Shown piece after piece: positions 37,396 to 53,797 of a stretch of DNA of 64,000 nucleotides (positions are counted from its first letter, which is position 1; every line of letters begins with the position of its first letter). The notes beneath the pieces are model-generated. The model made no database searches and had not been told where the DNA came from. It was given only the letters and a program-made list of their open reading frames with translations. Made by a program: the position numbers and the translations under genes. The DNA comes from an uncultured Planctomycetota bacterium (GTDB lineage: Bacteria > Planctomycetota > Phycisphaerae > Sedimentisphaerales > UBA12454), in the NCBI GenBank assembly GCA_903847315.1, contig CAINDG010000025.1, positions 1 to 64,000 of the forward strand. Direction: 5' to 3'.

Positions 37396-37396
37396 A

Positions 37397-38119
37397 TCAT
37401 TTTTCTTCCAGAGGCAACTGGATGGTAAAAGACGTGCCTTTTTGCGGCACACTGTCAACTTTTATCGAGCCGTGATGTGCTTCGATGATTTTTTTAGACG
37501 CTGAAAGCCCCAGTCCGCTGCCGCCGAGCTTTGTCGAATAATAAGCATCGAAAATCCTGTCCAGGTTTTCCGGCTCGATTCCCTTGCCTGTATCGCTAAC
37601 AATAATTACGGCGTTTGCGCCGTTTTTCTGGGTTCTAAGCATCAGTTCTCCGCCGTTGGGCATCGCCTGCTGAGAATTTATAAAAAGATTAAGCAAAACC
37701 TGCTTCAGCATATCAGCGTCCGCCCTGCAAATCAACTGCTGACTGCAGAGAGCGGTTCTGAGCGTAATCGAACGGCTGACAGCCTGCGGCGAATAAAAAT
37801 CCGTCATATCCGTTACAAGATGGTTAATATCGACAGAGACAGGATGCAGTTCGGTCTTTCGGATGTACCGCAGAAAATCTTCGAGAATCTGCTCGAGCCG
37901 GTCAGTCTCTTTCTGGACGACAGCGATTTTTCTGGCTGCCCTTGCGGGGTTTGCGTCTTTGGAGCCGAGTTCTTCCTCTATCAGTTTGAGATTAACTTTG
38001 ATAATCGAAAGCGGATTTTTTATTTCGTGAGCCAGGCCGCCTGTAAGACGGCTTAGTTCCTCAAGCTCGGATATTTTCGAGGTCTGTTCTTTCACGTTTT
38101 TTTCGCGATTATGCAACAT
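37397..38119 (-). CDS. Soluble sensor histidine kinase, NtrB-like
   Basis: 240 residues without a membrane segment or a clear sensor domain. The phospho-acceptor helix has H31 in GGLAHEIKNPLSII, and the ATPase domain has the N box LLNLFINSQQAMPNGG, the G1 box DTGKGIEP and the G2 box GGSGLGLSASKKII. It is cotranscribed with the NtrC-type regulator and is its likely partner. The short coiled-coil start suggests that the signal comes through a protein partner. It lies 39 bases after pnp in the same direction. Confidence 0.9.
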   Translation of the reverse strand: MLHNREKNVKEQTSKISELEELSRLTGGLAHEIKNPLSIIKVNLKLIEEELGSKDANPARAARKIAVVQKETDRLEQILEDFLRYIRKTELHPVSVDINHLVTDMTDFYSPQAVSRSITLRTALCSQQLICRADADMLKQVLLNLFINSQQAMPNGGELMLRTQKNGANAVIIVSDTGKGIEPENLDRIFDAYYSTKLGGSGLGLSASKKIIEAHHGSIKVDSVPQKGTSFTIQLPLEEK

Positions 38120-38158
38120 ACAGTTCAGAACAGATTATCGGCATCGGCGGCAAAAACC

Positions 38159-40300
38159 CTATGGTTTTGCTTTTGCCTTTGCATCTGCTTCTGCCTCGGC
38201 CTTGAGCTGAATAAGAGCGGCCTTTCTTGAAAGTTTAAACCTGCCCTGGTCATCGATTAAAAGAAGTTTTACCGGAATTTCATCGCCGATTTTAAGAACA
38301 CTATCGACATTTTTGACATAACCGTCGGCAATTTCGCTTATATGGCAAAGGCCCTCGACGCCCGGTATAATCTCAACAAACGCTCCGAAGTCTTTAATGG
38401 AAACAACTTTTGCGTTTGGATAAATGCGTCCGACAGTCGGCGGTTCGGTCATTGCCTGGATAAGTCTCTTTGCTTCCAGATGGCCGTCGCCGCCAACACA
38501 GCTTATATAAATCGTGCCGTCCTCTTCGATTTCTATCTTTGTGCCCGTCTTTACCTGAAGCGCTTTTATTGTTTTTCCGCCCGGGCCGATTATCTTGCCG
38601 ATAAACTCCGGGTCGATTTCGATGCTCGTAAGTTTCGGGGCATATACGCTCAACTGCTCTCGCGGCTTGCTGATGGTTTGCAACATAATCTCGAGCAGTT
38701 TAAGACGAGCCTGCTTTGCCGCTTCGAGCGATTCGACAATAATATCATACGACAGAGATGCCGCTTTTATATCGAGCTGAATAGCGGTTATACCGTTCTT
38801 TGTGCCGGCAACCTTGAAATCCATATCGCCGAAATGGTCTTCATCGCCGATTATATCCGTAAGCAGGACATATTTATCCTGCTCTTTTACCAGACCTATC
38901 GATATGCCTGCAACAGGCTCCAGCATAGGAACGCCTGCATCCATAAGGGCAAGTGTTCCGCCGCAAACTGACGCCATAGAGCTTGAGCCGTTCGATTCTG
39001 TAATATCGGAAACTATTTTTATGGTGTATGCAAAATCATCTATGCTCGGCTTTACACGTTCAAGTGCCTTTTCCGCCAGCGCTCCGTGACCGATTTCACG
39101 GCGGCCGGTACCACGCATCGGCTTGACTTCGCCGACACTATAAGGCGGGAAATTATAATGAAGCATAAACTTCTGGCCGTACTCTTCCATAAGACCATCG
39201 ACAATCTGTTCATCACTGCTGGTTCCGAGAGTTACCGCGACAAGAGACTGCGTTTCGCCTCTTGTAAACAGCGCCGAGCCGTGAGACCTCGGCAGCAAGC
39301 CCACTTCGCACGTTATAGGTCTTATATCGGTAAAGGACCTTCCATCAGGCCTTTTGCCGTTTAGAATCATATCTCTTACAACTGCTTTCTGCACATTATC
39401 GATTATTCTGCCGAGAAGTCTCGTTGAGCAGCGAGGCTCCTGACCAATCTGCGGTTCGGGGCAATACTGCTCCTTCATTTTTTCAACAATACCTTTCAGT
39501 GTTTCATTTCTTTCGGATTTTAATTTAATGCCGAAAGCCTGTTTGAAATCACTGGAATATTTCTTGCTTATTTCATCGGCAAGTGCCTGGTCCCATTCAA
39601 TTTCAGGTACTTGTTTTTTCTTGCCGCATTTTGCGACCAATTCGTCAATCAAATCGCAAACATCTTTTATTGACTGCTGAGCAGTCTGGACAGCCTGTGC
39701 CGCGACATCTTCAGTAACCTGTTTCGCATCGACTTCAATCATATTTATTGCATCGCGTCCGCCTGTCAGTATCAGATTGAAATCGCTTTGTTCACGCTGG
39801 GCATGAGTCGGATTGATAACAAATTGTCCCTCAACCCTGCTTAATCTTACTGCCCCGACAGGGCCGTTGAATGGTACCGTGCTTATCGCAAGAGCGGCAC
39901 TGGCGCCAACCATCGCAAGAATATCAGGGTCATTTTCCGGGTCTGCACTGATTACCGAAACGATTATCTGGACTTCATCATAATAACCGTCGGGAAAAAG
40001 CGGACGCAGCGGCCTGTCAATCATTCTTGAGGTCAGGACCTCTTTTGTGCTGGGCCTGCCTTCCCTTTTCATAAACCCGCCGGGGAACTTGCCGGATGCG
40101 CTTAATTTCTCGCGATATTCAACACTTAGTGGAAAATAATCAAGTTCTCTCGTAGTCGCCGCAGAGACAGCCGTCGCCAGAATCATTGTATCGCCATAAG
40201 TTACAATAACCGCTCCATCTGCCTGTTTGGCTATCTTTCCTGTTTCCAGAATAAGTTTTTTTTCACCGATCTGCTTTTCTACCCTAACAACATCTGCCAT
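38159..40300 (-). CDS. pnp: Polyribonucleotide nucleotidyltransferase
   Basis: Phosphorolytic 3'-5' exoribonuclease of the RNA degradosome. Two RNase PH domains are visible (RPSTKEVLTSRMIDRPLRPLF in the first, HYNFPPYSVGE and RREIGHGALAEKAL in the second), then the KH domain (IGPGGKTIKALQVKTG) and the S1 domain (GRIYPNAKVVSIKDFGAFVEI), and a short Ala/Lys tail. The start was set at MADVVRVEK, which has GAGG 5 bases upstream. It follows rpsO, the usual order, with a gap of about 100 bases. Confidence 0.96.
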   Translation of the reverse strand: MADVVRVEKQIGEKKLILETGKIAKQADGAVIVTYGDTMILATAVSAATTRELDYFPLSVEYREKLSASGKFPGGFMKREGRPSTKEVLTSRMIDRPLRPLFPDGYYDEVQIIVSVISADPENDPDILAMVGASAALAISTVPFNGPVGAVRLSRVEGQFVINPTHAQREQSDFNLILTGGRDAINMIEVDAKQVTEDVAAQAVQTAQQSIKDVCDLIDELVAKCGKKKQVPEIEWDQALADEISKKYSSDFKQAFGIKLKSERNETLKGIVEKMKEQYCPEPQIGQEPRCSTRLLGRIIDNVQKAVVRDMILNGKRPDGRSFTDIRPITCEVGLLPRSHGSALFTRGETQSLVAVTLGTSSDEQIVDGLMEEYGQKFMLHYNFPPYSVGEVKPMRGTGRREIGHGALAEKALERVKPSIDDFAYTIKIVSDITESNGSSSMASVCGGTLALMDAGVPMLEPVAGISIGLVKEQDKYVLLTDIIGDEDHFGDMDFKVAGTKNGITAIQLDIKAASLSYDIIVESLEAAKQARLKLLEIMLQTISKPREQLSVYAPKLTSIEIDPEFIGKIIGPGGKTIKALQVKTGTKIEIEEDGTIYISCVGGDGHLEAKRLIQAMTEPPTVGRIYPNAKVVSIKDFGAFVEIIPGVEGLCHISEIADGYVKNVDSVLKIGDEIPVKLLLIDDQGRFKLSRKAALIQLKAEAEADAKAKAKP

Positions 40301-40402
40301 AAATACCTCATGAAGTAAGAACACTTCAATTTTTAAAAAATAATAGGTTTAAAATATCCGTACACTCCTGCTTCGCTGGAAACAGAGAGAGTAACCGGAT
40401 AA

Positions 40403-40865: not shown

Positions 40866-41978
40866 TCAGCGTGCGATAATTGTAGAGATTCTGAATATAG
40901 GCAGTAAAAGAGCGATGGCGATAGTGCCAATAATGCTGCCCATTATAATAATCATCAAAGGCTCAATCATACTGGTTACATTCTTAATCGAGGTCTTAAG
41001 TTTCTTGTCATAAAAATCGCTTATTCTGTCGCATACATAGCCAAGATTACCGCCTTTTTCGCCCGCCTTTATCATCTGGATTATTGCCGGTGAAATCAGG
41101 TCGCTGTTGACTGCGGTTTTCATCGCCTCTGAAAGCTGAAAACCGGATTCAACTTTATCGCTTGTTTCCTGCCAGAATTGGCCGAAATACTGGTTGTCGC
41201 AGGAGGTTTTCACAATCTGCAGTGCCTCAAACAGGGTAACTCCCGTATTGAGCGTCGTTGCCATAATTCTTGTGCTTCTTGTCATTATAGTATCGGTAAA
41301 CATTGTTCCGAGAACCGGCGTGTGTATCTTGAACCAGTCGATAATTCTCCTGCCCCGGGGAGTTGTGACCGCATAATAAATTCCGCCCGCCATTATAATG
41401 AGCACAATTAATATTATACTTGCGGACTTAAAATTTCTAAATAGATTGCTTAAACTTACCAGCATTTGCGTAAGTTTCGGCAAGGCCTGGCCTCTGGATT
41501 CATAAATTTTCGTAAACTTCGGCAATACAAAAAATAACAGTGTTGTGGTTGCGATAATCGCCATTACCAGCATAATCGCCGGATAAATCAAAGCGCTTTT
41601 GATTTGTTTTTTTGTCTCCACTTCTCCTTCGATATACTTTTGCAGCACTTCGAGCATCTCAGGCATTCTGCCGGACGCTTCCGACGCCTGGATAGTGCTT
41701 ATAAACATCGGACTAAAAACTTTCGGATAGGCCGAAAGCGCAGTGGAAAAGCTTTCGCCGCTCAGCAGGTGCTCGGACAGGTCGAAAAGTATATCCTGAA
41801 ACGCACCGGGCGGCGTTTCCGATGTTATTGATTCGACAGCATCACTGATAACAACACCGCTGGAGAGCATTACCGACAACTGGCTTGCAAAAAGAAGCAG
41901 GTCAGACTGCTTCGCCTTTGAAACCGAAGTATCGTCAGCCGGTTTCATCAAAAGTAATGTGTCAAGTAATGTAGCCAT
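40866..41978 (-). CDS. Type II secretion / type IV pilus inner-membrane platform protein (GspF/PilC)
   Basis: 370 residues with two tandem T2SSF domains (about 25-150 and 230-355), each followed by membrane helices, three in total. It forms the inner-membrane base on which the assembly ATPase acts. Typical segments are SGESFSTALSAYPKVFSPMFI, IQASEASGRMPEML and IKAGEKGGNLGYVCDRI. It is the last gene of the long - strand pilus/secretion cluster, after the ATPase gene. Confidence 0.92.
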   Translation of the reverse strand: MATLLDTLLLMKPADDTSVSKAKQSDLLLFASQLSVMLSSGVVISDAVESITSETPPGAFQDILFDLSEHLLSGESFSTALSAYPKVFSPMFISTIQASEASGRMPEMLEVLQKYIEGEVETKKQIKSALIYPAIMLVMAIIATTTLLFFVLPKFTKIYESRGQALPKLTQMLVSLSNLFRNFKSASIILIVLIIMAGGIYYAVTTPRGRRIIDWFKIHTPVLGTMFTDTIMTRSTRIMATTLNTGVTLFEALQIVKTSCDNQYFGQFWQETSDKVESGFQLSEAMKTAVNSDLISPAIIQMIKAGEKGGNLGYVCDRISDFYDKKLKTSIKNVTSMIEPLMIIIMGSIIGTIAIALLLPIFRISTIIAR

Positions 41979-42007
41979 TTTTTATATTCCCGTACAAATA
42001 TCCGGCA

Positions 42008-43723
42008 TTATCCTTCCGAAGTCGTCACTCGCAGCACTTCATCAACGGAAGTTATACCGGCCTTGGCCTTTTGCAAACCGTCAAGCCGCAATGGCGCCAT
42101 ACCGTTTTTTATCGCGGCTTCTCTTATTTCTTTGAAGCTGGCGTTTCTTGTAATAAGTTCCTGGACTTCCTGATTTGGTACAAAAAGTTCATGTATGGCG
42201 ATTCTGCCGAGGTAGCCGGTATTTCTGCACTTCTTACAGCCTACTCCACGATAGAACTTTGAAGTCGAGTTAAGCTGTTTCTCGACCATCTTTCTGATTG
42301 ATACGGCCGGTTCATACTCTTCCCTGCAGTTCGAACAGATTTTCCTGACAAGTCTTTGCGCCAGCACGCCGACAAGAGAAGCGCCTATCAGGAAAGGAGC
42401 AACTCCGAGGTCAACAAGTCTTGTGACCGCTGCCGGCGCATCGTTTGTATGCAGAGTCGAAAGAACCAGATGACCGGTAAGAGCCGCCTGAACGGCAATA
42501 TTCGCTGTTTCATTATCGCGGACTTCGCCTATCATTACAATATCAGGATCCTGGCGAAGCAGGCTTCTCAGTGCGGTAGCGAAATTAAAGCCCGCCCCCT
42601 CGTTAACTTCAAATTGATTTATGCCTGAGACATTGGCCTCAATAGGGTCTTCGACCGTGCATATATTCACTTCGTCATTGTTTAGTTCGGTAAGCATTGC
42701 ATAAAGGGTCGTGTTCTTTCCGGAACCTGTCGGGCCTGTAACAAGAATTATGCCGTTAGGAGCATGTATTTTTTCTTTCAGAAGCCTGAGATTGTCATAA
42801 CTGAAACCAAGCGTTTCGAGATTAAAGAGTATTCGCTTTGCGTCGAGAATTCTTATGACGACTTTTTCGCCGAAGCTGCCCGGCATAACGGACACTCTCA
42901 AATCAATAGGCCGGCCGCCAACCATTACATGGATTCCGCCGTCCTGCGGGCTCCTGCGCTGGGCGATATCGAGTCCGGCCATTATTTTGATGCGGGAAAC
43001 GACAGCCGAGAGCATCTGGAACGGCGGACGGATTTTTTCATATAATCTTCCGTCAACACGATATCTCACTCGCAGCCTTTTATTGTCGGGTTCTATATGA
43101 ATATCGCTGGCGTTTTCATTGACGGCGTTATAGATAAGATAATTGACAAGTTTTACAATGGGCGACTGCCCCGCCACTTCTTCAAGGTTGCTTATGTCCT
43201 CGGAAACGCTCTCAATCAGCGTAAAATCATCAAGTCCGGTCTCGTCTATGATATCGTCAATAACGAAAACATTCGAAGCGGGCATATAAGCCTGCAAAGT
43301 CGCCTGTATATCTTTCGCAGTCGCGCAGACGACCTGCACATTGCAGCCGCTTATCCGTCCGATTTCATCGAGCAGAAAAACATTCGTCGGCTCGCTTACA
43401 GCCACTGTCAGGGTATTATAGACTTTAAACAGCGGCAGAACATAATGCTCCTCCAGAAAATCACGCGGCAGAATTTCGATAATGTTAGGATCGCATATTT
43501 TCGGGCTTACCTGCGCGTATGGTACACTATAGGCCTCGGCAAGAGCACAGGCTATATCGTTCTCCGTGCAGTAACCTTTTTCCACAAGCAATTCGCCGAG
43601 CAGTTTTTGATGGCCGCTGCTGTTCTGTTGAGAAATCGCCTGCTCAATCTGTTCGGCTGTTATAATTCCCTTTTCCAGCAGTATTTCGCCGAGCTGCAAT
43701 TTATTTGTTATGGTATCTTTCAT
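42008..43723 (-). CDS. Pilus/secretion assembly ATPase (PilB/GspE) with MshEN-type N-terminus
   Basis: 571 residues. The N-terminus has two MshEN-like motifs (LGEILLEKGIITAEQIEQAI and LGELLVEKGYCTENDIACAL), a domain known to bind cyclic di-GMP in MshE and some PilB proteins. The ATPase domain has the Asp box region, Walker B, the His box, and a zinc site CSNCREEY...CKKCRNTGY. The Walker A reads GPTGSGKN, with N337 where Thr or Ser is expected after K336 (codon AAC at 42715-42713). Two Thr follow directly, so function may be kept. It lies 13 bases after the STAS gene and before the platform gene. Confidence 0.92.
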   Translation of the reverse strand: MKDTITNKLQLGEILLEKGIITAEQIEQAISQQNSSGHQKLLGELLVEKGYCTENDIACALAEAYSVPYAQVSPKICDPNIIEILPRDFLEEHYVLPLFKVYNTLTVAVSEPTNVFLLDEIGRISGCNVQVVCATAKDIQATLQAYMPASNVFVIDDIIDETGLDDFTLIESVSEDISNLEEVAGQSPIVKLVNYLIYNAVNENASDIHIEPDNKRLRVRYRVDGRLYEKIRPPFQMLSAVVSRIKIMAGLDIAQRRSPQDGGIHVMVGGRPIDLRVSVMPGSFGEKVVIRILDAKRILFNLETLGFSYDNLRLLKEKIHAPNGIILVTGPTGSGKNTTLYAMLTELNNDEVNICTVEDPIEANVSGINQFEVNEGAGFNFATALRSLLRQDPDIVMIGEVRDNETANIAVQAALTGHLVLSTLHTNDAPAAVTRLVDLGVAPFLIGASLVGVLAQRLVRKICSNCREEYEPAVSIRKMVEKQLNSTSKFYRGVGCKKCRNTGYLGRIAIHELFVPNQEVQELITRNASFKEIREAAIKNGMAPLRLDGLQKAKAGITSVDEVLRVTTSEG

Positions 43724-43736
43724 ATTATTTTAACTG

Positions 43737-44072
43737 TTATGTAAAACTTTTAACTGCTTCACTAAGTTCCTGATACTGGTCCAGCTTGCTGTCGAGCCGG
43801 GTGATTTCCAGAATTTTTTTGATATTGTCTTCAAGGCCGGCAATTTTCAGCTGGCTTCTGTTTTCATGGCAGTAATCTCTCAGCCAGAGCAATTGCTCGA
43901 GTCCTTTGCTGTCGATTATCGCAATTTTTCTCATATCGAGCACAATTCCCGTCCGCTGCCGGCCGATAAGTTCGGTCATTGTGTCCTGGAAAAGTTTGCA
44001 GTATTCATCCACAAACTCGCCATGAAGCTCTGCAACAGTAACATCGTTATAATCCTGTTGTTTTATTTTCAT
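43737..44072 (-). CDS. STAS-domain protein (anti-sigma factor antagonist-like)
   Basis: 111 residues, a single STAS domain. The order is a beta start (VTVAELHGEFVDEY), GIVLDMRKIAIIDSKGLEQLL with the Ser of the DSKG loop at the site that is phosphorylated in SpoIIAA-type proteins, and a C-terminal helix. The start was set at MKIKQQDYNDV, whose ATG overlaps the stop of the HD-GYP gene (ATGA); the longer frame has no support. Such proteins switch partners by Ser phosphorylation; no serine kinase of the SpoIIAB type is in the window. Confidence 0.85.
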   Translation of the reverse strand: MKIKQQDYNDVTVAELHGEFVDEYCKLFQDTMTELIGRQRTGIVLDMRKIAIIDSKGLEQLLWLRDYCHENRSQLKIAGLEDNIKKILEITRLDSKLDQYQELSEAVKSFT

Positions 44073-45661
44073 CTCAAAAGCGCTCCCACCGCGATAGTGC
44101 CGTAATCGCTGAAATTGTCGGAATATAAATCGTCCGTTCCGCCGTTCTGAATAAGTTCCCACAGCTTATCGATGTCGCTGTTCAGGAATATCGAACCGAT
44201 TTCCGGGTCGAATTGTCCGCCTAAACCTTTTTTAATTTCGTTTATCGCCTCTTCGAGTCCCAGAGCCTCTCTGTAAGTTCTCCTTGAAGTCATAGCGTCA
44301 AAGGAATCGGCAATCATAACTATTTTGCCGGCAAGAGGAATTGCATCGCCTGTCAGGCCCCTTGGGTATCCCTCGCCGTCGTATCTTTCATGATGGCACA
44401 AAACACCCGGAACAACATCAGTCATCTGACGGATTTCGGAAAGGATGTTTGCGCCTATAGTAGGATGAGTCTTCATCTGCTCATACTCTTCGTCGGTCAG
44501 TTTGCCTTTCTTTCCCAGCACCGATTCCGGTATGCCGATTTTGCCGATATCGTGCAGCAATCCCGCAAGATATATTTTCTGTATATCTTCTATAGACATC
44601 TTCTTTGTCCGGGCATACCGTTCCGCAATCCACTTGGACAGGAACGCGACCCGCTCTGAATGGCCCCTGGTATATTGGTCTTTTGCATCAATACTGCTTG
44701 TAAGGGCCTTCAATGAACCAATGAATAATTCCTTCAGGTCTCTGAACAAACCCTGGTTTTCGATAAAGACGGCGCATTCGTTCGCGACAGAGTTGAAAAG
44801 TTTCGCGTCGATGCTGTCGAAATCCGCCTTGTCAAGACGATTCGTGGCGACCATCATACCGATAATTTTGTCTTTGCCGTGCAGCGGAACAGCGATAATA
44901 TTTCTTACCCTGCCGAACCACTCGTATTTGAAAGGCGCATCCACCTCGCTGTCAAGCAGGGCTTCTGAGCCTGTCTCAATCTCGGCAAGAAGTCTTTCAA
45001 AAAGCACTTCGTGCATATTTCCGTTCTTATGGTCCATTGCGATAAGACCTGTGCCAGCGGTAAGAACAAGTTTTCTGGAATTGTTAATTTTCTTTTCAAG
45101 AAATACCGCGATTCCCTCGACATTGACAAGTTCTATCAGGCTGTCGCAGGCCATCTGCAGGTAATTAGAGTCGGACTGGCTCACTTTCATATTGGTGCTC
45201 ATCTTATAAAGCAGCATAAGTTCTTCGTATGTTTGCGCAAGTTCGCCGCTAATCATTTCCATCTGCTGCACGACTCTAAGTTCATCATTAAAGCCCTTGA
45301 GGAACATTTTTAGCATTTGTCTGGCATAAGCGACAGTTTCCTGATGCAGCGGCAAGCCCTCGCTGCAGTCAATAACTATTATTGCTGCCGTGTTGCCGCC
45401 GATCGTTATGTCGCAAGCGAGTACTTGGTTGGATTTGCCGAAGTTGTATATCACACCCGGTTCAGAATCTAACACGTGTTTTGCGCACGCGGTGGCTGCT
45501 TCGTAATCGCTGATAAACTTTTCGCCGTTGAAATGAATAATTATGTTGAGTTCGGCATCGTAAACAAGAAAATTGACACCGAGATCTCCCATATCCCTGC
45601 CGAAATCCTTAAGCAGTCTCAACTGGCTGGTACTTAGACGATTTTGCGTTGTTTTCAACAT
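44069..45661 (-). CDS. GAF and HD-GYP domain protein, predicted cyclic di-GMP phosphodiesterase
   Basis: 530 residues. An N-terminal region of about 150 residues of unknown type is followed by a GAF-like sensor domain (about 155-320) and a full HD-GYP domain (about 325-525). All catalytic marks are present: GHSERVAF, LLHDIGKIGIPE, HHERYDGEGYPRGL, and ADSFDAMTS. HD-GYP enzymes hydrolyse cyclic di-GMP. Its stop overlaps the STAS start, and the ATPase with an MshEN domain is two genes on, so it may set the c-di-GMP level seen by the pilus motor (inference). Confidence 0.92.
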   Translation of the reverse strand: MLKTTQNRLSTSQLRLLKDFGRDMGDLGVNFLVYDAELNIIIHFNGEKFISDYEAATACAKHVLDSEPGVIYNFGKSNQVLACDITIGGNTAAIIVIDCSEGLPLHQETVAYARQMLKMFLKGFNDELRVVQQMEMISGELAQTYEELMLLYKMSTNMKVSQSDSNYLQMACDSLIELVNVEGIAVFLEKKINNSRKLVLTAGTGLIAMDHKNGNMHEVLFERLLAEIETGSEALLDSEVDAPFKYEWFGRVRNIIAVPLHGKDKIIGMMVATNRLDKADFDSIDAKLFNSVANECAVFIENQGLFRDLKELFIGSLKALTSSIDAKDQYTRGHSERVAFLSKWIAERYARTKKMSIEDIQKIYLAGLLHDIGKIGIPESVLGKKGKLTDEEYEQMKTHPTIGANILSEIRQMTDVVPGVLCHHERYDGEGYPRGLTGDAIPLAGKIVMIADSFDAMTSRRTYREALGLEEAINEIKKGLGGQFDPEIGSIFLNSDIDKLWELIQNGGTDDLYSDNFSDYGTIAVGALLR

Positions 45662-45680
45662 CAGTGTTTGCCCTTATTTT

Positions 45681-46064
45681 TCATTTTACGGCCGAATTTG
45701 CCAATACGTTTTCAACATGAGCCAAAAGTTCCTTCGGACTGAACGGCTTGCTGAGACATTCTGCCACGCGGAGTTTTTCCTTCTGGTCGTCTTCTATCGC
45801 AAAGCCCCTTGCGGTAAGTATTATCACTGGAATATCCGCAAGTTCCGGCACCAGCCGAAGTTTTTCTATTAATTCAATCCCGGTCATTCCCGGCATCTGG
45901 TAATCGGTAATAATAATATCCGGCTTTTCCTCGCAGCAGAGAGTATAGGCGTCGTCGCCGTTATCTGCGGTAATAACATCGAAGCCGTTGTTGCGAAATT
46001 TCATCGCAACCACCTGAACAATGTGAACTTCATCATCAGCAACAAGTATTTTTTTGTTTCCCAT
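45681..46064 (-). CDS. Single-domain response regulator (CheY-like)
   Basis: 127 residues, one receiver domain and no output domain. The acidic pocket is in ILVADDEVHIV, the phosphorylated Asp in IIITDYQMPGMTG, the Thr in VIILTARG and the Lys in LSKPFSPKELL. The start is MGNKKILVADDE with AGGTGAT about 6 bases upstream. It sits between the hybrid-like sensor kinase gene and the HD-GYP gene, so it probably carries the kinase signal to another protein of the cluster. Confidence 0.92.
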   Translation of the reverse strand: MGNKKILVADDEVHIVQVVAMKFRNNGFDVITADNGDDAYTLCCEEKPDIIITDYQMPGMTGIELIEKLRLVPELADIPVIILTARGFAIEDDQKEKLRVAECLSKPFSPKELLAHVENVLANSAVK

Positions 46065-46083
46065 ATAAATCACCTGTAAAAAA

Positions 46084-47433
46084 TCATCTTGTACCTGTTT
46101 TTACCGTCGCCAATAGCGGCAATTCAAAACCGAAACAACTGCCTTTTCCGACCTGGCTCGTAACAAACACACGTCCGTCATGAACTTTTTCGATAATCTG
46201 TTTTACCAGGTTCAATCCCAGTCCTGTGCCTTTCGCGAATTTGTTGTTCGCCTTTACTCTGTAAAATTTTTCAAAGATACGCGGCAACTCCTCGGCAGGG
46301 ATACCTGCGCCGGTATCGACTATAGTCACTCTGACTACTTGCTGGGATTCATCGACTTCGCTGTTAACGGTTATTTTACCGTCGTTTGGCGTATATTTAA
46401 CCGCATTGCTCAGAAGGTTTATTACAGCCTGCGAAATCATATCTTTATCCGCGTAAACCTGGTCGAACACAATTGCCGTCTGGTCCTCGACGGTTATATT
46501 CTTTTCGGCGGCGTAGCTTTTTACCATTTGCGCCGCATCTCTCACTATCAAAGCGGTACTAACCGCCTCTTTATTGACCTTGATAAGTCCCGATTCGATT
46601 CTCGATATATTCAGGATGTCCTCGATGAGACGATTAAGTCTCTGCGCCTGACTTTGTATGATTGAGTAAAATTCCTTTCTTGTTTTTTCATCGGCCGCTT
46701 CGCCGTCAACGAGCATTTCGGAATAGGCGGTGATTGAGGCAAGCGGCGTCTTAAACTCGTGCGAAACATGGCTTACGAAATCATTCTTCATCTGTGAGAT
46801 TTCCTTCTCGCGTGTGATATCGTGCAGGACCGATACTACCCCGCAAACCTGGTCGTCATCGTCGTAAATGCATGAGATAATACAATCGTATGTCTGGGTG
46901 TTTTCGCCTGACTCAAACTGCAGTTCATGCCGGACGTGTCTTGTCCTGCTGTTTCTGCTGCTGCCGATAAGTTTTTTCAGTTCTCCGCTGCTGACAAGTT
47001 CTTCCATCGGTTTCAGCATCGCTCCTTTGACGTCAAAATCGAAAAGACCCCCTGCCGGCTCGTTGGCCATAATTAACCTGTCGCTCGCGTCGGTTACGAT
47101 AACGGCATCTGAAATACTGTAAATAATGGCTTCGGTATTCCGTTTCTGCCTTTTCAAAAGCTGTAATTGAAGTTTGAAATCTTTGGCGTCATTTATACTT
47201 TGCGATGCCTTTTCGCATTGATTTTTATAGTCGTTCCTGAGACTGGCAACCTGAACGAGAAACATTCTTCTTTCAATAAACAGCCGCCAGCCCAGCCATC
47301 CGGCAGCGCCGATAGCGGCTATGCAGGCTAGTGCCTCCGCCAGAGTCGTACCGCCCAGCGGCATGGCCGCGATGAGCATCAATACGATAAATACCAGTAC
47401 TGCAAGAAAGATGTAATTTTTACTAAACACCAT
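46084..47433 (-). CDS. Membrane sensor histidine kinase with PAS domain
   Basis: 449 residues. Two membrane helices come first (about 8-22 and 26-50), then a coiled coil, a PAS domain (about 95-205, with IYSISDAVIVTDASDRLIMAN split over two motifs), the HisKA helix FVSHVSHEFKTPLASITAYS and the ATPase domain (NLLSNAVKYTPNDG, DTGAGIPAEEL, GTGLGLNLVKQII). The outside loop is only a few residues, so the signal is likely sensed in the membrane or by PAS. It shares one base with the TPR gene upstream. Confidence 0.92.
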   Translation of the reverse strand: MVFSKNYIFLAVLVFIVLMLIAAMPLGGTTLAEALACIAAIGAAGWLGWRLFIERRMFLVQVASLRNDYKNQCEKASQSINDAKDFKLQLQLLKRQKRNTEAIIYSISDAVIVTDASDRLIMANEPAGGLFDFDVKGAMLKPMEELVSSGELKKLIGSSRNSRTRHVRHELQFESGENTQTYDCIISCIYDDDDQVCGVVSVLHDITREKEISQMKNDFVSHVSHEFKTPLASITAYSEMLVDGEAADEKTRKEFYSIIQSQAQRLNRLIEDILNISRIESGLIKVNKEAVSTALIVRDAAQMVKSYAAEKNITVEDQTAIVFDQVYADKDMISQAVINLLSNAVKYTPNDGKITVNSEVDESQQVVRVTIVDTGAGIPAEELPRIFEKFYRVKANNKFAKGTGLGLNLVKQIIEKVHDGRVFVTSQVGKGSCFGFELPLLATVKTGTR

Positions 47434-48620
47434 TAGTCCTTTCCGTTCGTCTTAGCCAGAAGCCGTTGAAGTTCGCTGCCGGAGCCGAATTTTTCGGCTT
47501 CTTGATAAGCAGCTTGCGACTGTTCATTTCTGCCGAGCTTTTCATAACATCTGCCCGTCATCAGCCACGCAAAATTGGCATATTTAGGAACATCGGCGGC
47601 TTTCCGGAAATCAGCAGCCGCCTGCAGATAATTGCCGCTCTTGTAATTCGCCGAGCCGCTTAAAAGCCAGGCTTCCGTCATATCCGGTGCAAGTTCCAGA
47701 ACCTTCTGGCTGCACGTAATCGCCTGACCCAGCGAACCGGCTCCTAAAGCGGCCTGTCCCATCGAAAGCCAAAGCCCGGCATTATTTTTATCCTGTGCCG
47801 CGAGATTCGAGTAATATTTCATCGCGGCCGCGTAATCGCCGGCATTCATTGCGGCTATAGCCATTGTTTTCATATATCTGCTTTTCTCTTCCAGAGAAAC
47901 ACATCGGGAATACAACTGCCGATGAACGTCAAGTGCCTTGGCCCACTGTCCCGTAAGAACATAGCACGAGCCGAGCGCCTCAAGCAGTTTGTTATTTTCA
48001 GGTTTCAGCATCCATGCCTGTTCATAAAGCTGCAAAGCCTGCTGGTTTTTGTTCTGTGCCAGATACATTTGAGCGGCAGAAACTTTCAAATCTGTATCAG
48101 AGGGATTCGACGCCATTTTTGCCGCATAAAGAGACTCTGCGGAATTGAAATCTCCCGCCGCCTGGTACATTTGACCGACTGCGATTATGTAATCCGTATT
48201 ATCAGGAACAATTTCGAGTGCTTTCTTGTACCACTCCATCGCCGAGACTTTATCGCCGAGCCGTTCGCACGTAAGAGCCAGCAAAAACAGACTGGAATCA
48301 TCACGGTCGTTTGCGCTGATATAGTCCTGCAGATAACGCTTTGCCTGTTGGAAATCTTCCTGTGCAAATTTGATTTTGCCAAGCAACAGTTTTGCCTGAT
48401 ACAGGTTCGGGTCTGAATTGAGACATTGTTTTGCCGATTCTTCAGCCTGACTATACTGGCCCGCTTCAAATTGTTCCTGTGCCATTGGAAGTTTTACATT
48501 GGCAGAATCTTTGTCCCATTTCGCCTTAACTTTTTGCCTGCCGGTACGGCTGAGACAATCAGCGGCGAAAAGCATCTCAACGGCACAAATAAATATCATA
48601 ATTTTTATTTTTCTATTCAT
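47433..48620 (-). CDS. TPR-repeat protein of the pilus/secretion cluster
   Basis: 395 residues. A short signal-like N-terminus (IKIMIFICAVEMLFAADC) is followed by about nine tetratricopeptide repeats, recognisable by A/G-Y-x-x-A-x-x-x-Y/F patterns such as GQYSQAEESAKQCLNSDPN and GDKVSAMEWYKKALEIVPD. Exported TPR proteins act as scaffolds, and PilF/PilW-type pilotins for the secretin are TPR proteins, so a role in placing the secretin encoded just before it is plausible. AGGAAACAGGCA stands in front of the ATG. Confidence 0.82.
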   Translation of the reverse strand: MNRKIKIMIFICAVEMLFAADCLSRTGRQKVKAKWDKDSANVKLPMAQEQFEAGQYSQAEESAKQCLNSDPNLYQAKLLLGKIKFAQEDFQQAKRYLQDYISANDRDDSSLFLLALTCERLGDKVSAMEWYKKALEIVPDNTDYIIAVGQMYQAAGDFNSAESLYAAKMASNPSDTDLKVSAAQMYLAQNKNQQALQLYEQAWMLKPENNKLLEALGSCYVLTGQWAKALDVHRQLYSRCVSLEEKSRYMKTMAIAAMNAGDYAAAMKYYSNLAAQDKNNAGLWLSMGQAALGAGSLGQAITCSQKVLELAPDMTEAWLLSGSANYKSGNYLQAAADFRKAADVPKYANFAWLMTGRCYEKLGRNEQSQAAYQEAEKFGSGSELQRLLAKTNGKD

Positions 48621-48630
48621 TGCCTGTTTC

Positions 48631-50385
48631 CTATCTGCCGGACCAGCCGGGTTCCTGTTCTTTGCGGATTTGTTCGAGCATTATTCTTTCCAGAGTTTTG
48701 TACTCCTCCGGTTTTGTTTCAGCGAGAATCTTTTCCTTAAGCCGAACAGCTTCGATAGCGTCCGGCCTGAAACCTATAATCCAGTTCAGCTCGCTAAGAG
48801 CTTTGTCGTACTTTTTCTCGGAATAATATTTGACTGCCCTTGCGTAGCTGTCTTCATAAATGCGCACTCTTGAAATCGGGCTCATTGCTTTTCTCGAGCC
48901 CTGATAAAGCCGGTCCAAATCCTGCTGCTTTTTTTCAGTTTCAGCTGCAAGTTTTTCCGGTTCGTTAATAATATGAGGCGTTATCAATATGATAAGCTCG
49001 TTGCGGATGTTGGCGTTTTTAGTCCTTTTGAAAAGTGCGCCGATAATCGGCATATCACCCGCAATCGGCACTTGTGCGTCAGTGTTTGTAAGTTGTTCCT
49101 TAAACAAGCCGCCGATAACAATTGTTCTGCCGTCCTTTACCATTATATTGCTCTTCACCTGCGTAATGGTTTTCGACGGTATAACAGTACCGTTGCCGGT
49201 AGTGATGATAGAGGCAGTGCTTTCTTCAGGGTTAATCTCCATACGAACATATCCATTGTCGCATATAAACGGCCTAAACCTCAAAAGTGTACCGCTTGGG
49301 AGAAATGCTACTGATGATGTTGTGTTGCCTCCGGATGTTTGCGTTGTACTCTCGGTATAACCGGTCTCGTTGCCGATGTTTATATAACCGGCCTGTTTGT
49401 TCAGCGCCATAATCTTGGGATTGGCAAGCACCGTTACATCTGTCACATCCTCAAGAGCGGTAATCAGGGAAACAAATTTATCATTAGTAAAGCCGACGTT
49501 AAGGCCTGTCGCCGCCGGCGTTATTCCGCTCGTAAGACCTACAGATATACCATTGGTACTTTGACTAACAGTAACGCCCGCTATCGTATTCCAGTTTATG
49601 CCGAATTCGGTTGTCTCCGTCAGCTTGGCGTTGAGGATTGTAACTTCTATCATTATCTGCTTAGGCTGTACGTCTATTTCCTTAATCATTTTGCCAATCT
49701 GGTCGAGCCTTTCGGGATAATCGTAAACAACTATCGTATCTCTCATTGTGAGTTTATCGCCGCCTTCGCCGGCTTCGGTGTTTGTCCCGGCTGGTGTCGT
49801 CGTACCAACTTTGCCGGCTTCGCTTAGCACCGGCGTAATTAGCGCTTTCACCTCGGCTGCGTTGACATAATATAATGTATATGCCCTGCTGGTCATTCTG
49901 GAAGTGTCCTTAACCATCTTTGTATATTCGTCCTCGCCATAAACCCTGATAAAATCGCCGTCAATGTCATAGCGAAAATCATTTCCGAGAACCGCCTTGA
50001 GCGCTTCCTCGAAAGTAACCTCGTAGAGATTTGTAACGTTGAGTTTGCCGTCAACTTTCGCCGATGGTATTATATTTTTCCGGTATTTCGCCGCCAGGAA
50101 TCGCAATGCCTCTCCAACCGACATATCCTGCCTGAAACTTATAGACTGTACCGCCTGGTTGGCAATGGACTTCTCCGCTTCCGTACGCGGCGGTTCAGCC
50201 GCATACACCAGTCCGCTTTCCTGCCGTTCGAGCATTACGGACTCGTCGACATTTACCTTGTTCGGCTCAGGCTGGTTAACATCCGACTGACCGGTCGCGG
50301 CCGCTGCCGAGGCAATTACAGTGATTATGAATAGAAGTATCAGGTTTATGCTATTGCTTTTCATTTTTATTTTTTCTCGTTTCAT
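48631..50385 (-). CDS. Outer-membrane secretin (PilQ/GspD family)
   Basis: 584 residues with a signal peptide (SINLILLFIITVIASAAAATG). Residues about 80-150 are an STN/secretin N0-like domain (DMSVGEALRFLAAKYRKNII), followed by an N1-like domain (YTLYYVNAAEVKALI) and the secretin barrel from about residue 235 to 475 with VPIAGDMPIIGALFKRT and LIILITPHII. The C-terminal 100 residues are helical, with PEEYKTLERIM. It forms the outer-membrane gate and indicates a diderm envelope. AAGGA lies about 8 bases before the ATG. Confidence 0.92.
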   Translation of the reverse strand: MKREKIKMKSNSINLILLFIITVIASAAAATGQSDVNQPEPNKVNVDESVMLERQESGLVYAAEPPRTEAEKSIANQAVQSISFRQDMSVGEALRFLAAKYRKNIIPSAKVDGKLNVTNLYEVTFEEALKAVLGNDFRYDIDGDFIRVYGEDEYTKMVKDTSRMTSRAYTLYYVNAAEVKALITPVLSEAGKVGTTTPAGTNTEAGEGGDKLTMRDTIVVYDYPERLDQIGKMIKEIDVQPKQIMIEVTILNAKLTETTEFGINWNTIAGVTVSQSTNGISVGLTSGITPAATGLNVGFTNDKFVSLITALEDVTDVTVLANPKIMALNKQAGYINIGNETGYTESTTQTSGGNTTSSVAFLPSGTLLRFRPFICDNGYVRMEINPEESTASIITTGNGTVIPSKTITQVKSNIMVKDGRTIVIGGLFKEQLTNTDAQVPIAGDMPIIGALFKRTKNANIRNELIILITPHIINEPEKLAAETEKKQQDLDRLYQGSRKAMSPISRVRIYEDSYARAVKYYSEKKYDKALSELNWIIGFRPDAIEAVRLKEKILAETKPEEYKTLERIMLEQIRKEQEPGWSGR

Positions 50386-50412: not shown

Positions 50413-51000
50413 TTAAAAAGGCTGAGGAATTTTCCTGGTAATCATTATTCCGTTGCAATCGAGTTCAACTCTGTCTTCAAGGATATTCAGAATCTTGAAG
50501 CGGTATATTTGGCCGTGAAACATATATTTAAAACTCTGGCCTTTTTCAAACAGCTTATTCTCGATAAACGCCTGCGGTTTTTTCCCGCCGACGATTGCTG
50601 TCAGCTTCATATCCGCCGCTGCCGCCTCAGCAGGAGAACTAAACTGCTGGTCTGCATTATTCCGTTCATTATTCGATGCATACGAGTTCTGTCTATTGAA
50701 TCGCTTGAAATTCCCTGCCGAAAAAACATCGTTCGCAATCGCGTTATGTCTTTGCGGTATATACGGCAGTTCGATATACACTATTTTCTGACCCGCCATT
50801 TGCGCCGAAAGTTGATTCGAATCGACAGCGACAGCAGCGGAAACTGCCGCCGGTTTGCCCTTGCCGCTGAAAATCCTTACCCACAATAAAGCCATAACAA
50901 CCAGAAGCAGCAAAGCCGCAATGACCTTCTTGCGATGAGCGGCGTTTCTGGCTGCTGCTGCTTTTTGCCGGTCGATATTTTTAAGTACCGGTTGTTTCAT
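50413..51000 (-). CDS. PilP/GspC-like inner-membrane linker protein (tentative)
   Basis: 195 residues: a basic cytoplasmic start, one membrane helix (about 24-45), a long polar Asn/Ser/Ala-rich linker, and a C-terminal small beta domain (MKLTAIVGGKKPQAFIENKLFEKGQSF). That last motif is the pattern of PilP and GspC homology-region domains, which connect the PilMNO platform to the secretin. Position between pilO-like and secretin genes supports this, but sequence similarity is limited. Confidence 0.65.
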   Translation of the reverse strand: MKQPVLKNIDRQKAAAARNAAHRKKVIAALLLLVVMALLWVRIFSGKGKPAAVSAAVAVDSNQLSAQMAGQKIVYIELPYIPQRHNAIANDVFSAGNFKRFNRQNSYASNNERNNADQQFSSPAEAAAADMKLTAIVGGKKPQAFIENKLFEKGQSFKYMFHGQIYRFKILNILEDRVELDCNGIMITRKIPQPF

Positions 51001-51534
51001 TTATTGCGTCCTGTAAAATATTTCTACCTTCGCGTTCATTGTTAAAACGCCTTCGAGTTTGTCGCTGTTGGTCAGCGAAAGTTCCTCGATGCGGACTACT
51101 CTTTCGCAGGATTCCAGCGTCTTGAAAAAACTGAAAATCTGCGCCAGTCTTCCGCTGCATCGGATATTGACCGGGATGCCGGACAGTTTGGCGGTTTCAA
51201 TTTCGTTTTCGGGCTGAATGGCAAGCCCTGTCAGGCCGTGCTGCTGCATCAAATCGGCAAGTTTCTGCAAAAATGTGCCGTGCGACCTTCCCAGCGGTAT
51301 CTTCGCGTCAAAATTGCCTACCTGCTTTTTCATCTCTTCATTCTGCTGGTAAAGCATCGGCAGCACTTCGACCCTCGCGTTGACAGTCGTGTTATCGGCA
51401 ATCAATTGCGCGTTCGCGGCGTTCAAAGTCCTGGCCTTTTTATTCAGCGGCATATATTGAAAGAACACAAAAGCCACCGCCAGCATTATTACCGCGATTG
51501 ACATAACAAATTGTTTGTTTTTTATTACCTGCAT
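51001..51534 (-). CDS. PilO-like pilus assembly protein
   Basis: 177 residues: one N-terminal membrane helix (about 8-28), a coiled coil (about 30-80) and a ferredoxin-like periplasmic domain (HGLTGLAIQPENEIETAKL and PVNIRCSGRLAQIFSFFKTLE). With PilM and PilN it makes the inner-membrane alignment complex of type IV pili. It begins directly after the PilN-like gene and abuts the PilP-like gene. Confidence 0.82.
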   Translation of the reverse strand: MQVIKNKQFVMSIAVIMLAVAFVFFQYMPLNKKARTLNAANAQLIADNTTVNARVEVLPMLYQQNEEMKKQVGNFDAKIPLGRSHGTFLQKLADLMQQHGLTGLAIQPENEIETAKLSGIPVNIRCSGRLAQIFSFFKTLESCERVVRIEELSLTNSDKLEGVLTMNAKVEIFYRTQ

Positions 51535-51540
51535 AATCTT

Positions 51541-52179
51541 TTAACTCTGCTTGAAATTCGCAAGATAACAGCTTATTTCAAATTCACTCGCCTGGTATTC
51601 TCCGGTCGTTACATTTCTTGAATAATCCGGCACAACCTGGAAGAAATAACCCGATTTTTCCAGCCTGTTAATTATCCCGGCGACCTCTGTCGCGTCGGCG
51701 GCAAGACCTGTAATGATAATTTTAAATTTTGTATCTTCCTCGAAAGGCGATGCCTGCTCCGCCCCTGCCGCGGAAACGGTTCTTACGCTCGTCTGCTTAT
51801 TCAGAAATTCAAGAGGCTCCGTCTTTATCTCGATTTTCTTAAGAACAATCCTTCCATCCAGCAGATGTGTAAGTTCCGCGATAACATTCGAAACAACAAT
51901 CCGGGGCTCGACCATTTTAAGAGTCTCGGACTCGGCCTTTAACTGCTCGTATTTGTTCTCCGCCACAGAATATTCCGCCTCCGAACGCGACTGCAGCAGT
52001 CTGGCGTTTCCCAAACTTACGGTCCTGGCCATTATCAAAGCGATTCTGCCGTTAGCGAATACGCTCCATATCGCCATAACGGCGACAATCAATCCCATCG
52101 CGAAATAAAACTCGCGGTGTTTCTTTTGCTGCGTACGTCCCTGTTTGTACCAGTCCGGTAGAAAATCAATTTCTTTCAT
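51541..52179 (-). CDS. PilN-like pilus assembly protein
   Basis: 212 residues starting MKEIDFLPDWYKQ, the short cytoplasmic segment by which PilN binds PilM (usual motif INLLP; here IDFLP). One membrane helix (about 25-45), a coiled coil and a ferredoxin-like domain follow. It overlaps the PilM-like gene by 14 bases and is followed by the PilO-like gene. Confidence 0.86.
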   Translation of the reverse strand: MKEIDFLPDWYKQGRTQQKKHREFYFAMGLIVAVMAIWSVFANGRIALIMARTVSLGNARLLQSRSEAEYSVAENKYEQLKAESETLKMVEPRIVVSNVIAELTHLLDGRIVLKKIEIKTEPLEFLNKQTSVRTVSAAGAEQASPFEEDTKFKIIITGLAADATEVAGIINRLEKSGYFFQVVPDYSRNVTTGEYQASEFEISCYLANFKQS

Positions 52180-53281
52180 ATGCTCTCTGTTTATTTGTCA
52201 GATTCAAACCTTTAAGACACAAACCCGCTGCTACCGCCCATTCGCAAAGCATCGACCTCTTGTCGCCGGGGAATCGCACATTCGAAATATCGAAGCCTCT
52301 CAATGGCTCGGTAATTTCTATTTCCACTCCCAAATGGCGCTTAATCGCGTTTATAAGCGTCTCTTCGTATGCCTCGCCGCCGGCGAAAACTACCTGGCTG
52401 GGCCGCTGTCCTCTGAATGTTACTGAATAATATCTGAAACAAAGCGATATCTCTCTGGCAAGCTCGTCGATGACTGAATACATACTATCGACAACGACCT
52501 GTCTGGTGGACGGTTCGATTTCTCGCGATTCGGGTTCGTTTCTCAGTTTGCTTCTCAGGTGCATCGCCTCGTCAAGATCGATGCCGAGCCGGGTTGCTAT
52601 CTGACGGTTTATCTGCTCCGAGGCGATACCTATTTGCTTTGCAAAAATAATTTCGCCCGCCCTGCCGATAACAACAATGGTATAACTTTCGCCGATATCG
52701 ACAAAAACATTTGCCTTTTCCTGGTCGGCGGTTCTTCGCAGCGACCTTTGCAAACTCCTGAAAAGCGCACAGGGCATCGTATCGATTGCCACCGGAGTCA
52801 GGCCGGCCTTATCAAGAATATCAATATGGCTTTTCAGCGATTCTTTAGTGACGGCAAAGAGAATAACTTCATTTTTGACCTCATCGCCCTGCCTGATGCT
52901 GCCCGCGGAAATAAACCGGATTTCGTGAGTATCCGTCTTGAGACCTGAGCGTTCGATAATCTCTGATTTGAGGATTTTTTCGATTTCCTTTTCGTCGCTC
53001 GTATCCAGTTTCAGGCTCCTGATAATCAAATCCGCGCTTGGCAGATACGAAACAACGTCTCTTCTCTGGAATTGTCCTTCCGCCAGCATTTCCTTGATTG
53101 CGGCAATCGTGGCTTCGGTTCTCTTCTCATTGCCTTCGGAAATTTCAGTGGCTATCTGTCTCTCATCGGCGGCGGTAACGACTATCTTGCCGCCCTTTAA
53201 CTGCAGTTGCAGCATCTTCACCGAGCCGCTGCTGATGTCCAGTCCGATTGGACTTGTCTTTGTCTTTAAAAATTCAAGCAT
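52166..53281 (-). CDS. PilM-like actin-fold pilus assembly ATPase
   Basis: 371 residues of the FtsA/actin fold. The phosphate 1 loop is IGLDISSGSVKMLQL, the phosphate 2 region is NVFVDIGESYTIVVI, and the adenosine segment is QVVFAGGEAYEETLI. It sits on the cytoplasmic face and binds the tail of PilN. The gene opens the pilMNOPQ set, 6 bases after the GspH-like pseudopilin gene. Confidence 0.9.
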   Translation of the reverse strand: MLEFLKTKTSPIGLDISSGSVKMLQLQLKGGKIVVTAADERQIATEISEGNEKRTEATIAAIKEMLAEGQFQRRDVVSYLPSADLIIRSLKLDTSDEKEIEKILKSEIIERSGLKTDTHEIRFISAGSIRQGDEVKNEVILFAVTKESLKSHIDILDKAGLTPVAIDTMPCALFRSLQRSLRRTADQEKANVFVDIGESYTIVVIGRAGEIIFAKQIGIASEQINRQIATRLGIDLDEAMHLRSKLRNEPESREIEPSTRQVVVDSMYSVIDELAREISLCFRYYSVTFRGQRPSQVVFAGGEAYEETLINAIKRHLGVEIEITEPLRGFDISNVRFPGDKRSMLCEWAVAAGLCLKGLNLTNKQRAYERN

Positions 53282-53287
53282 AATTAA

Positions 53288-53797
53288 TTACTCAATGCTT
53301 ACGTATCCCGTTACCGATTCAATCTTCACTTTCAACGTACTGCCCTCGGCGCTCAATTGCACAAACCCGTTGCTCAAACTGTTGCCGGCGATATCGAAAG
53401 GCGCCCCCATACTATCGAACTTGACGGTATTGGCTGTGCCGAAACCAGTACTGACGATATTAACTTTATTAAGCCTGCTGTCGTTTGCGAAACTTATAAC
53501 GTAACTTGCCCCGATATGCACAGGATGAGTTATCACCTGCCCGGCGGAATCTTTAATGCAGTAGCTTTCCGCTGCCGTATCGAAAACAACCGAACAACTT
53601 TTGCCCGTGCTTATCGCCATACTCTTTGCGTACTCCAGGTCGGATGCGACCATATTGGCCGCGGTCTTAAGCTGCATCGGAGCCGCCGACACATACAGCG
53701 GTACCGCGACAGCGGCTATGATGCCGAGTACTATCAGCACAATGACCACCTCTAACAGCGAAAACGCCGATAGGGTTTTCTTACAATTTTTTTTCAT
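53288..53797 (-). CDS. GspH-like minor pseudopilin
   Basis: 169 residues with a class III prepilin signal: CKKTLSAFSLLEVVIVLIVL, where the residue before the cleavage site is Ala rather than the usual Gly, and the Glu at position 5 of the mature form is kept. The body (LEYAKSMAISTGKSCSVVFD) has the GspH/FimT pattern. Cleavage and methylation would need a prepilin peptidase, which is not in the window. Confidence 0.85.
   Translation of the reverse strand: MKKNCKKTLSAFSLLEVVIVLIVLGIIAAVAVPLYVSAAPMQLKTAANMVASDLEYAKSMAISTGKSCSVVFDTAAESYCIKDSAGQVITHPVHIGASYVISFANDSRLNKVNIVSTGFGTANTVKFDSMGAPFDIAGNSLSNGFVQLSAEGSTLKVKIESVTGYVSIE

Follow-up and report, generated by a model that had tools for sequence, protein, structure and literature searches.

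A candidate two-component and cyclic di-GMP control module with a STAS protein, encoded in the type IV pilus operon of Phycisphaerae

We analyzed a type IV pilus operon of an uncultured planctomycete (class Phycisphaerae, order Sedimentisphaerales), located on a 64,000-nucleotide stretch of DNA, here called the window, from contig C25 of a 54-contig genome (2.44 Mb, 97% complete). Between its secretin and motor genes, this operon encodes a sensor kinase, a single-domain receiver, an HD-GYP protein and a STAS protein. Our analysis indicates that these genes may form a two-component and cyclic di-GMP (c-di-GMP) control unit for the pilus extension motor, which is encoded in the operon of the machine itself and in which the STAS protein would act on the extension ATPase PilB; we assign this reading a probability of about 0.6. 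It builds on gene content, intact catalytic and phosphorylation sites, conserved gene order, gain and loss as a unit, exchange of the c-di-GMP enzyme, and a fusion of STAS, MshEN and PilB in two genomes of different phyla. Judged from these sequence-level features, the circuit is well supported as a conserved module.

In the proposed mechanism, the membrane-tethered PAS kinase would phosphorylate the lone receiver, which would then act on the c-di-GMP enzyme of the same transcript (the HD-GYP protein here, a GGDEF cyclase in other lineages). This enzyme would alter the local c-di-GMP level seen by the MshEN N-terminus of PilB. The STAS protein would be a small PilB accessory, docking on MshEN or close to it and coupling the receiver, the enzyme or both to the motor. 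We infer in which direction the signal flows, which partner the receiver contacts, that c-di-GMP is bound by this PilB, and how extension responds.

Gene identities were assigned with curated profiles from Pfam and NCBIfam (Table 1). The run on the minus strand comprises a GspH-like pilin, PilM, PilN, PilO, a PilP/GspC-like protein, PilQ, a TPR protein, the PAS kinase, the receiver, the GAF-HD-GYP protein, STAS, PilB and PilC. An earlier note on this DNA, made from the sequence alone, had described a TPR protein, a kinase, a receiver, an HD-GYP and a STAS gene between secretin and motor genes, separated by gaps or overlaps of a few bases; all five are present on this strand with matches to curated profiles, and the intergenic distances from PilQ to PilC are −4 to 29 bp. 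The genes it placed at 40866-48620 are found there, except that the secretin (50385-48631) falls outside this interval. Among named genomes, the operon has its nearest relatives in Planctomycetes bacterium GWF2_50_10 and in Sedimentisphaerales metagenome-assembled genomes.

Comparison with related genomes revealed that the order kinase, receiver, HD-GYP, STAS, PilB is kept in 33/33 loci of the taxonomic order that are complete on their contig. It recurs in the 19 loci examined from other families of the class, with the exception of L193, which is cut by a contig end, and L194, which has PilB elsewhere. The latter locus (genome G089) retains kinase, receiver, HD-GYP and STAS, and its PilB lies on another contig. 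In a class sample of 198 genomes, a PilB orthologue was found in 86 (E≤1e-180), and STAS lies 16-201 bp upstream of PilB in 82 of these. Such class-wide gene order rules out chance neighbours. In a receiver-based scan of named genomes, the loci that have PilB next to kinase, receiver and STAS all came from Planctomycetota. Among the genus-mates, G005 carries STAS (62% identity) and PilB in two pieces (77%). The other five (G001-G004, G006) contain no STAS orthologue; their PilM is absent or only 23-27% identical, compared with 63-71% within the family, and at 43-44% identity, compared with 78-83%, they have no orthologous PilB. As STAS, PilM and PilB are missing together, the unit is gained or lost whole with the pilus genes. 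The regulatory genes are thus missing from close relatives only where the operon itself is missing, and the conserved order that the earlier note had proposed looking for is present.

The position between receiver and STAS holds different enzymes in different lineages. It is occupied by HD-GYP in the Phycisphaerae loci examined, by a membrane-GAF-GGDEF protein with a GGEEF motif in another planctomycete family (L211, L260-L263, L271), and by HD-GYP and GAF-GGDEF together in L212 and L274. Thirteen loci have an empty slot (L218, L264-L270, L272, L273, L081, L082, L085). In a divergent family of the same order (L210 8327-9664, genome G015), the slot contains a 445-residue protein without Pfam match that by eye resembles a degenerate GGDEF protein. 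Since an enzyme that makes c-di-GMP and one that breaks it replace each other in one slot, c-di-GMP would be the currency of the module; we consider this the strongest comparative argument. The empty slots suggest that kinase, receiver and STAS form the steadier core, which raises an alternative: the receiver may act straight on STAS and PilB, in a CheY-like manner, with c-di-GMP as a secondary layer added in some lineages. Kinase, receiver and STAS remain with PilB in the 13 empty-slot loci and also in the rearranged operons L229 and L277. However, all slot enzymes that Pfam could identify are c-di-GMP enzymes, the HD-GYP protein is catalytically invariant and its gene overlaps that of STAS, and PilB retains MshEN throughout, so that we regard direct action of the receiver as unlikely, although it is the best placed of the alternatives.

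The link between STAS and PilB is most direct in two gene fusions. In a planctomycete genome (L279, G541), STAS, MshEN and T2SSE domains are joined in one open reading frame of 680 residues. The second fusion, of 679 residues, was found in the betaproteobacterium Massilia sp. HP4 (L304), where the genes run, with the signalling part arranged as in the planctomycetes, from kinase, receiver and GAF-HD-GYP to the STAS-MshEN-T2SSE fusion, then PilC, pilin-like genes, and PilM-like and PilN-like genes. The STAS part of the Massilia protein scores 24.8 bits (cut-off 22.6) and lacks the D-S pair. Among the matches listed for 23 named genomes, PilB adjoins or is fused to STAS in Massilia and three genomes of Planctomycetota only. 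The independent fusion in Massilia supports an action of STAS on PilB and counts against an obligatory phospho-serine switch.

A partner switch was the role that the earlier note had given to STAS. As a classical partner switch, STAS would be the real output of the module: a kinase would phosphorylate its Ser, a PP2C phosphatase would remove the phosphate, and free STAS would sequester another protein. The D-S site is well kept (D in 60/60 class sequences; S in 57/60 of them, with Gly in the other three; S in 20/20 of the other Planctomycetota tested), a sequence search for solved relatives yielded only the anti-sigma antagonist TM1442, and the genome contains two SpoIIE-type (PP2C) phosphatases, both on another contig. 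Yet profile searches found neither a SpoIIAB/RsbW-type kinase nor a phosphatase in the operon, whose kinase is a HisKA enzyme; the three Gly replacements and the loss of the D-S pair in Massilia also argue against a switch, and fusion to PilB indicates a fixed partner. The partner-switch part of the earlier proposal is therefore regarded as very unlikely, and its remaining part, a local circuit tied to the pilus motor, is supported: the unit moves whole, its order and catalytic residues are conserved, its slot holds HD-GYP or GGDEF, and GGDEF proteins are encoded in the genome. That the genes are co-transcribed for joint expression only, with kinase, receiver, HD-GYP and STAS acting globally without touching the pilus machine, is improbable as well: HD-GYP products are able to lower c-di-GMP in the whole cell and operon membership by itself is no proof of contact, but the place right before PilB is kept through the class, the unit is lost together with the pilus genes, STAS is fused to PilB in two genomes, and the slot enzyme has been exchanged repeatedly.

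Two-component hallmarks are present, namely the phospho-accepting His of the kinase and the Asp, Asp pair, Thr and Lys of the receiver. The H, N and G boxes of the kinase are invariant in 57/57 class sequences and conserved in other Planctomycetota loci too, and the receiver phospho-site residues (D, D, D, T, K) are likewise conserved in the class and in other Planctomycetota. The two membrane helices of the kinase are adjacent and no extracytoplasmic sensor domain is present, so that sensing probably takes place through either PAS or the membrane machine. The start of its gene overlaps the stop of the TPR gene by 1 bp (TAATG). The HD-GYP enzyme, which had been called complete, indeed contains the full catalytic signature (HD, HDxGK, HHExxDGxGYP), with catalytic residues invariant in 59/59 sequences, and is predicted to hydrolyze c-di-GMP. 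Its closest solved relative and best fold match is the GAF-HD-GYP protein of PDB entry 4mcw (151 bits over residues 150-503). An AlphaFold model of moderate confidence (mean pLDDT 71, seven sequences) shows an additional N-terminal GAF-like fold and a long helix; the window protein thus shares the GAF-HD-GYP core with 4mcw and adds an N-terminal GAF-like domain and a coiled coil. Besides its GGDEF proteins, which rule out a cell devoid of c-di-GMP, the genome encodes six MshEN domains. The STAS gene starts at ATG 44072, where it overlaps the HD-GYP stop by 4 bp (ATGA), and the same overlap is found in 47/57 class loci. A longer reading frame from GTG 44162 was rejected, as homologues begin at ATG 44072.

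The MshEN-like domain that the earlier note had seen on the ATPase is clearly present, with both its Pfam and its NCBIfam motif profile matching above cut-off (Table 1). The published consensus, (R/K/L)LGxx[LVI][LVI]xxG[LVI][LVI]xxxxLxxxLxxQ, occurs twice in MshEN domains (PMC5013675, PMC11731258). Compared with it, the window PilB keeps most positions, but its motif I begins with Q, Ile replaces Leu at two positions there and at one in motif II, Tyr-Cys stands at positions 11-12, and Ala replaces Gln in motif II. Across 57 class sequences, G, L, G and the last Gln of motif I are conserved, with Q instead of R/K/L at position 1 in 43/57. Motif II starts with L, retains LGE, and in most sequences shows A, T or G in place of its last Gln; the initial L is allowed by the consensus and, in Thermus PilF, has been linked to high affinity. 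Lineages with a GGDEF slot or an empty slot have R or K at the start of motif I. The expected conservation of c-di-GMP residues therefore holds for most motif positions and fails at the start of motif I and at the Gln of motif II. Judged by these motifs, binding of c-di-GMP by this PilB is plausible. Elsewhere in the protein, Walker A (residues 330-339) reads GPTGSGKN, with Asn at the usual Mg-coordinating Ser/Thr position, and the other catalytic motifs are conserved. This KN is found in 35/35 readable copies of the order, KS in 40/40 readable copies from outside the order, in the class and in other near lineages, KT in 8 distant PilB copies, and KS or KT in the paralogues of the same genome.

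Several observations weigh against the proposed control unit. With motif I mostly Q-initial and motif II without its Gln in the class of the window, c-di-GMP binding is not assured. In view of the 13 empty slots, the c-di-GMP step is either dispensable or supplied from elsewhere. STAS was not found beside 4 of the 86 class PilB orthologues. The fusion in L279 is one nucleotide away from the separate, ATGA-overlapping genes of its relative L278, so that an assembly error is possible. Lastly, gene order and fusions demonstrate association, not mechanism. Going beyond the control unit itself, we tentatively propose, at slightly less than even odds, that the extension ATPase has STAS as its dedicated regulatory subunit, and that STAS represents a new class of PilB cofactor, present in at least two phyla. 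It would integrate receiver phosphorylation and c-di-GMP at MshEN, and the slot occupant (maker, breaker, both or none) would set the sign of c-di-GMP control.

That c-di-GMP and two-component systems control type IV pili is already known, and STAS would be the undescribed part. In the PdeK-PdeR/FimX-PilZ-PilB system of Xanthomonas, a two-component kinase likewise drives a c-di-GMP phosphodiesterase that affects PilB, but the response regulator itself has an EAL domain and works through FimX and PilZ (PMC11656802). The window instead encodes a separate receiver, an HD-GYP or, in relatives, GGDEF enzyme and a STAS protein beside PilB, all inside the structural operon; a PdeR-type protein that unites receiver and phosphodiesterase is not found, receiver and HD-GYP being separate genes. 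MshE, Thermus PilF and Myxococcus PilB are also extension ATPases with an N-terminal tandem 24-residue c-di-GMP motif (PMC5013675, PMC11731258, PMC11656802). PilB proteins of the window's class differ from these in the mostly Q-initial motif I, the conserved 7-residue spacer, the L-initial motif II without last Gln, and the partner STAS. Response regulators (PilG/PilH) also control pilus activity in the Pil-Chp system of Pseudomonas (PMC11656802), but this is a chemosensory network acting through cyclic AMP, whereas the window has a lone two-helix PAS kinase and c-di-GMP enzymes. A 2024 review of PilB control mentions neither STAS nor HD-GYP (PMC11656802). Among the open-access papers searched, none joins STAS with PilB, a single unrelated paper contains STAS domain, type IV pili and c-di-GMP together, and nothing relevant was found on Phycisphaerae pili, HD-GYP with planctomycete pili, or Massilia.

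Table 1. Features of the pilus operon in the window, with the evidence for each assignment.
Feature	Position	Strand	Evidence
GspH/minor-pilin-like gene, head of pilMNOPQ run	53288..53797	-	Pfam GspH and N_methyl
PilM	52166..53281	-	NCBIfam TIGR01175 135.7 bits, cut-off 133
PilN	51541..52179	-	Pfam PilN
PilO	51001..51534	-	Pfam PilO
PilP/GspC-like inner-membrane protein	50413..51000	-	Position and conserved family only; kept at same place in relatives
PilQ secretin	48631..50385	-	Pfam Secretin 143.9 bits; TIGR02515 186.8 bits, below its cut-off 284
Exported TPR protein	47433..48620	-	TPR profiles; TIGR02521 PilW 68.9 bits, below cut-off
Sensor histidine kinase: two membrane helices, PAS, HisKA, HATPase	46084..47433	-	Pfam; topology
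Single-domain receiver	45681..46064 (ATG start; GTG at 46073 possible)	-	Response_reg 85 bits
Putative c-di-GMP phosphodiesterase: GAF-like, coiled coil, GAF, HD-GYP	44069..45661	-	Pfam; model
STAS-domain protein, 111 residues	43737..44072	-	STAS 39 bits; orthologues
PilB extension ATPase with MshEN N-terminus	42008..43723	-	T2SSE 448 bits; MshEN 57.5 bits, cut-off 23.1; matches solved PilB structures
Tandem MshEN c-di-GMP motifs, PilB residues 10-64: QLGEILLEKGIITAEQIEQAISQQ, 7-residue spacer, LLGELLVEKGYCTENDIACALAEA	43532..43696	-	NCBIfam NF053729 (MshE-type c-di-GMP motif) 61 bits, cut-off 38; column conservation
PilC inner-membrane platform protein	40866..41978	-	T2SSF 198 bits

The structural part of the operon encodes the type IVa pilus set PilB, PilC, PilM, PilN, PilO and PilQ together. 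PilM scores above its NCBIfam cut-off, and PilB and PilQ score below their equivalog or subfamily cut-offs; the PilP/GspC-like protein has no Pfam or NCBIfam match. The TPR protein, which the earlier note had listed beside the regulatory genes, is probably a PilW/Tgl-like secretin pilotin rather than a signalling part, because most of the relatives' TPR proteins shown carry a lipobox and a PilW profile matches below cut-off. Its gene is variable and was undetected in some relatives' loci; for this reason, and in view of the lipoprotein relatives, we do not count it among the circuit genes. Measured against GspF/PilC models, the N-terminus of PilC is about 40 residues short, and the NCBIfam alignments to these models begin at model positions 58-77. 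A retraction ATPase PilT is encoded elsewhere in the genome (TIGR01420 445 bits, cut-off 319), and in the relatives L203 and L260 PilT sits between PilB and PilC (420-421 bits against the same cut-off). A second motor cluster of the genome (G000:C40 58012-62925) contains PilB, PilT, PilB and then PilC. Downstream of PilC in the window, the region 36049-40324 carries pnp and, after it, genes for a cytoplasmic kinase and an NtrC-type regulator; all three occupy the same place in many relatives. An Rfam scan of the window matched no RNA family, and we therefore claim no c-di-GMP riboswitch. A promoter scan differed from shuffled sequence by no more than about two standard deviations and was left unused as evidence, and a scan of viral contigs with STAS as query gave no match.

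Knowledge of the routes by which c-di-GMP and surface signals reach the extension motor comes from a small number of models, most of them proteobacterial. In the case described here, control genes lie inside the pilus operon throughout a class of Planctomycetota with pili that have hardly been studied in the papers searched. The series of slots with HD-GYP, GGDEF, both or none provides a natural experiment on the sign and the need of c-di-GMP control, and the partnership of STAS with PilB is directly testable because Massilia sp. HP4 has the fusion.

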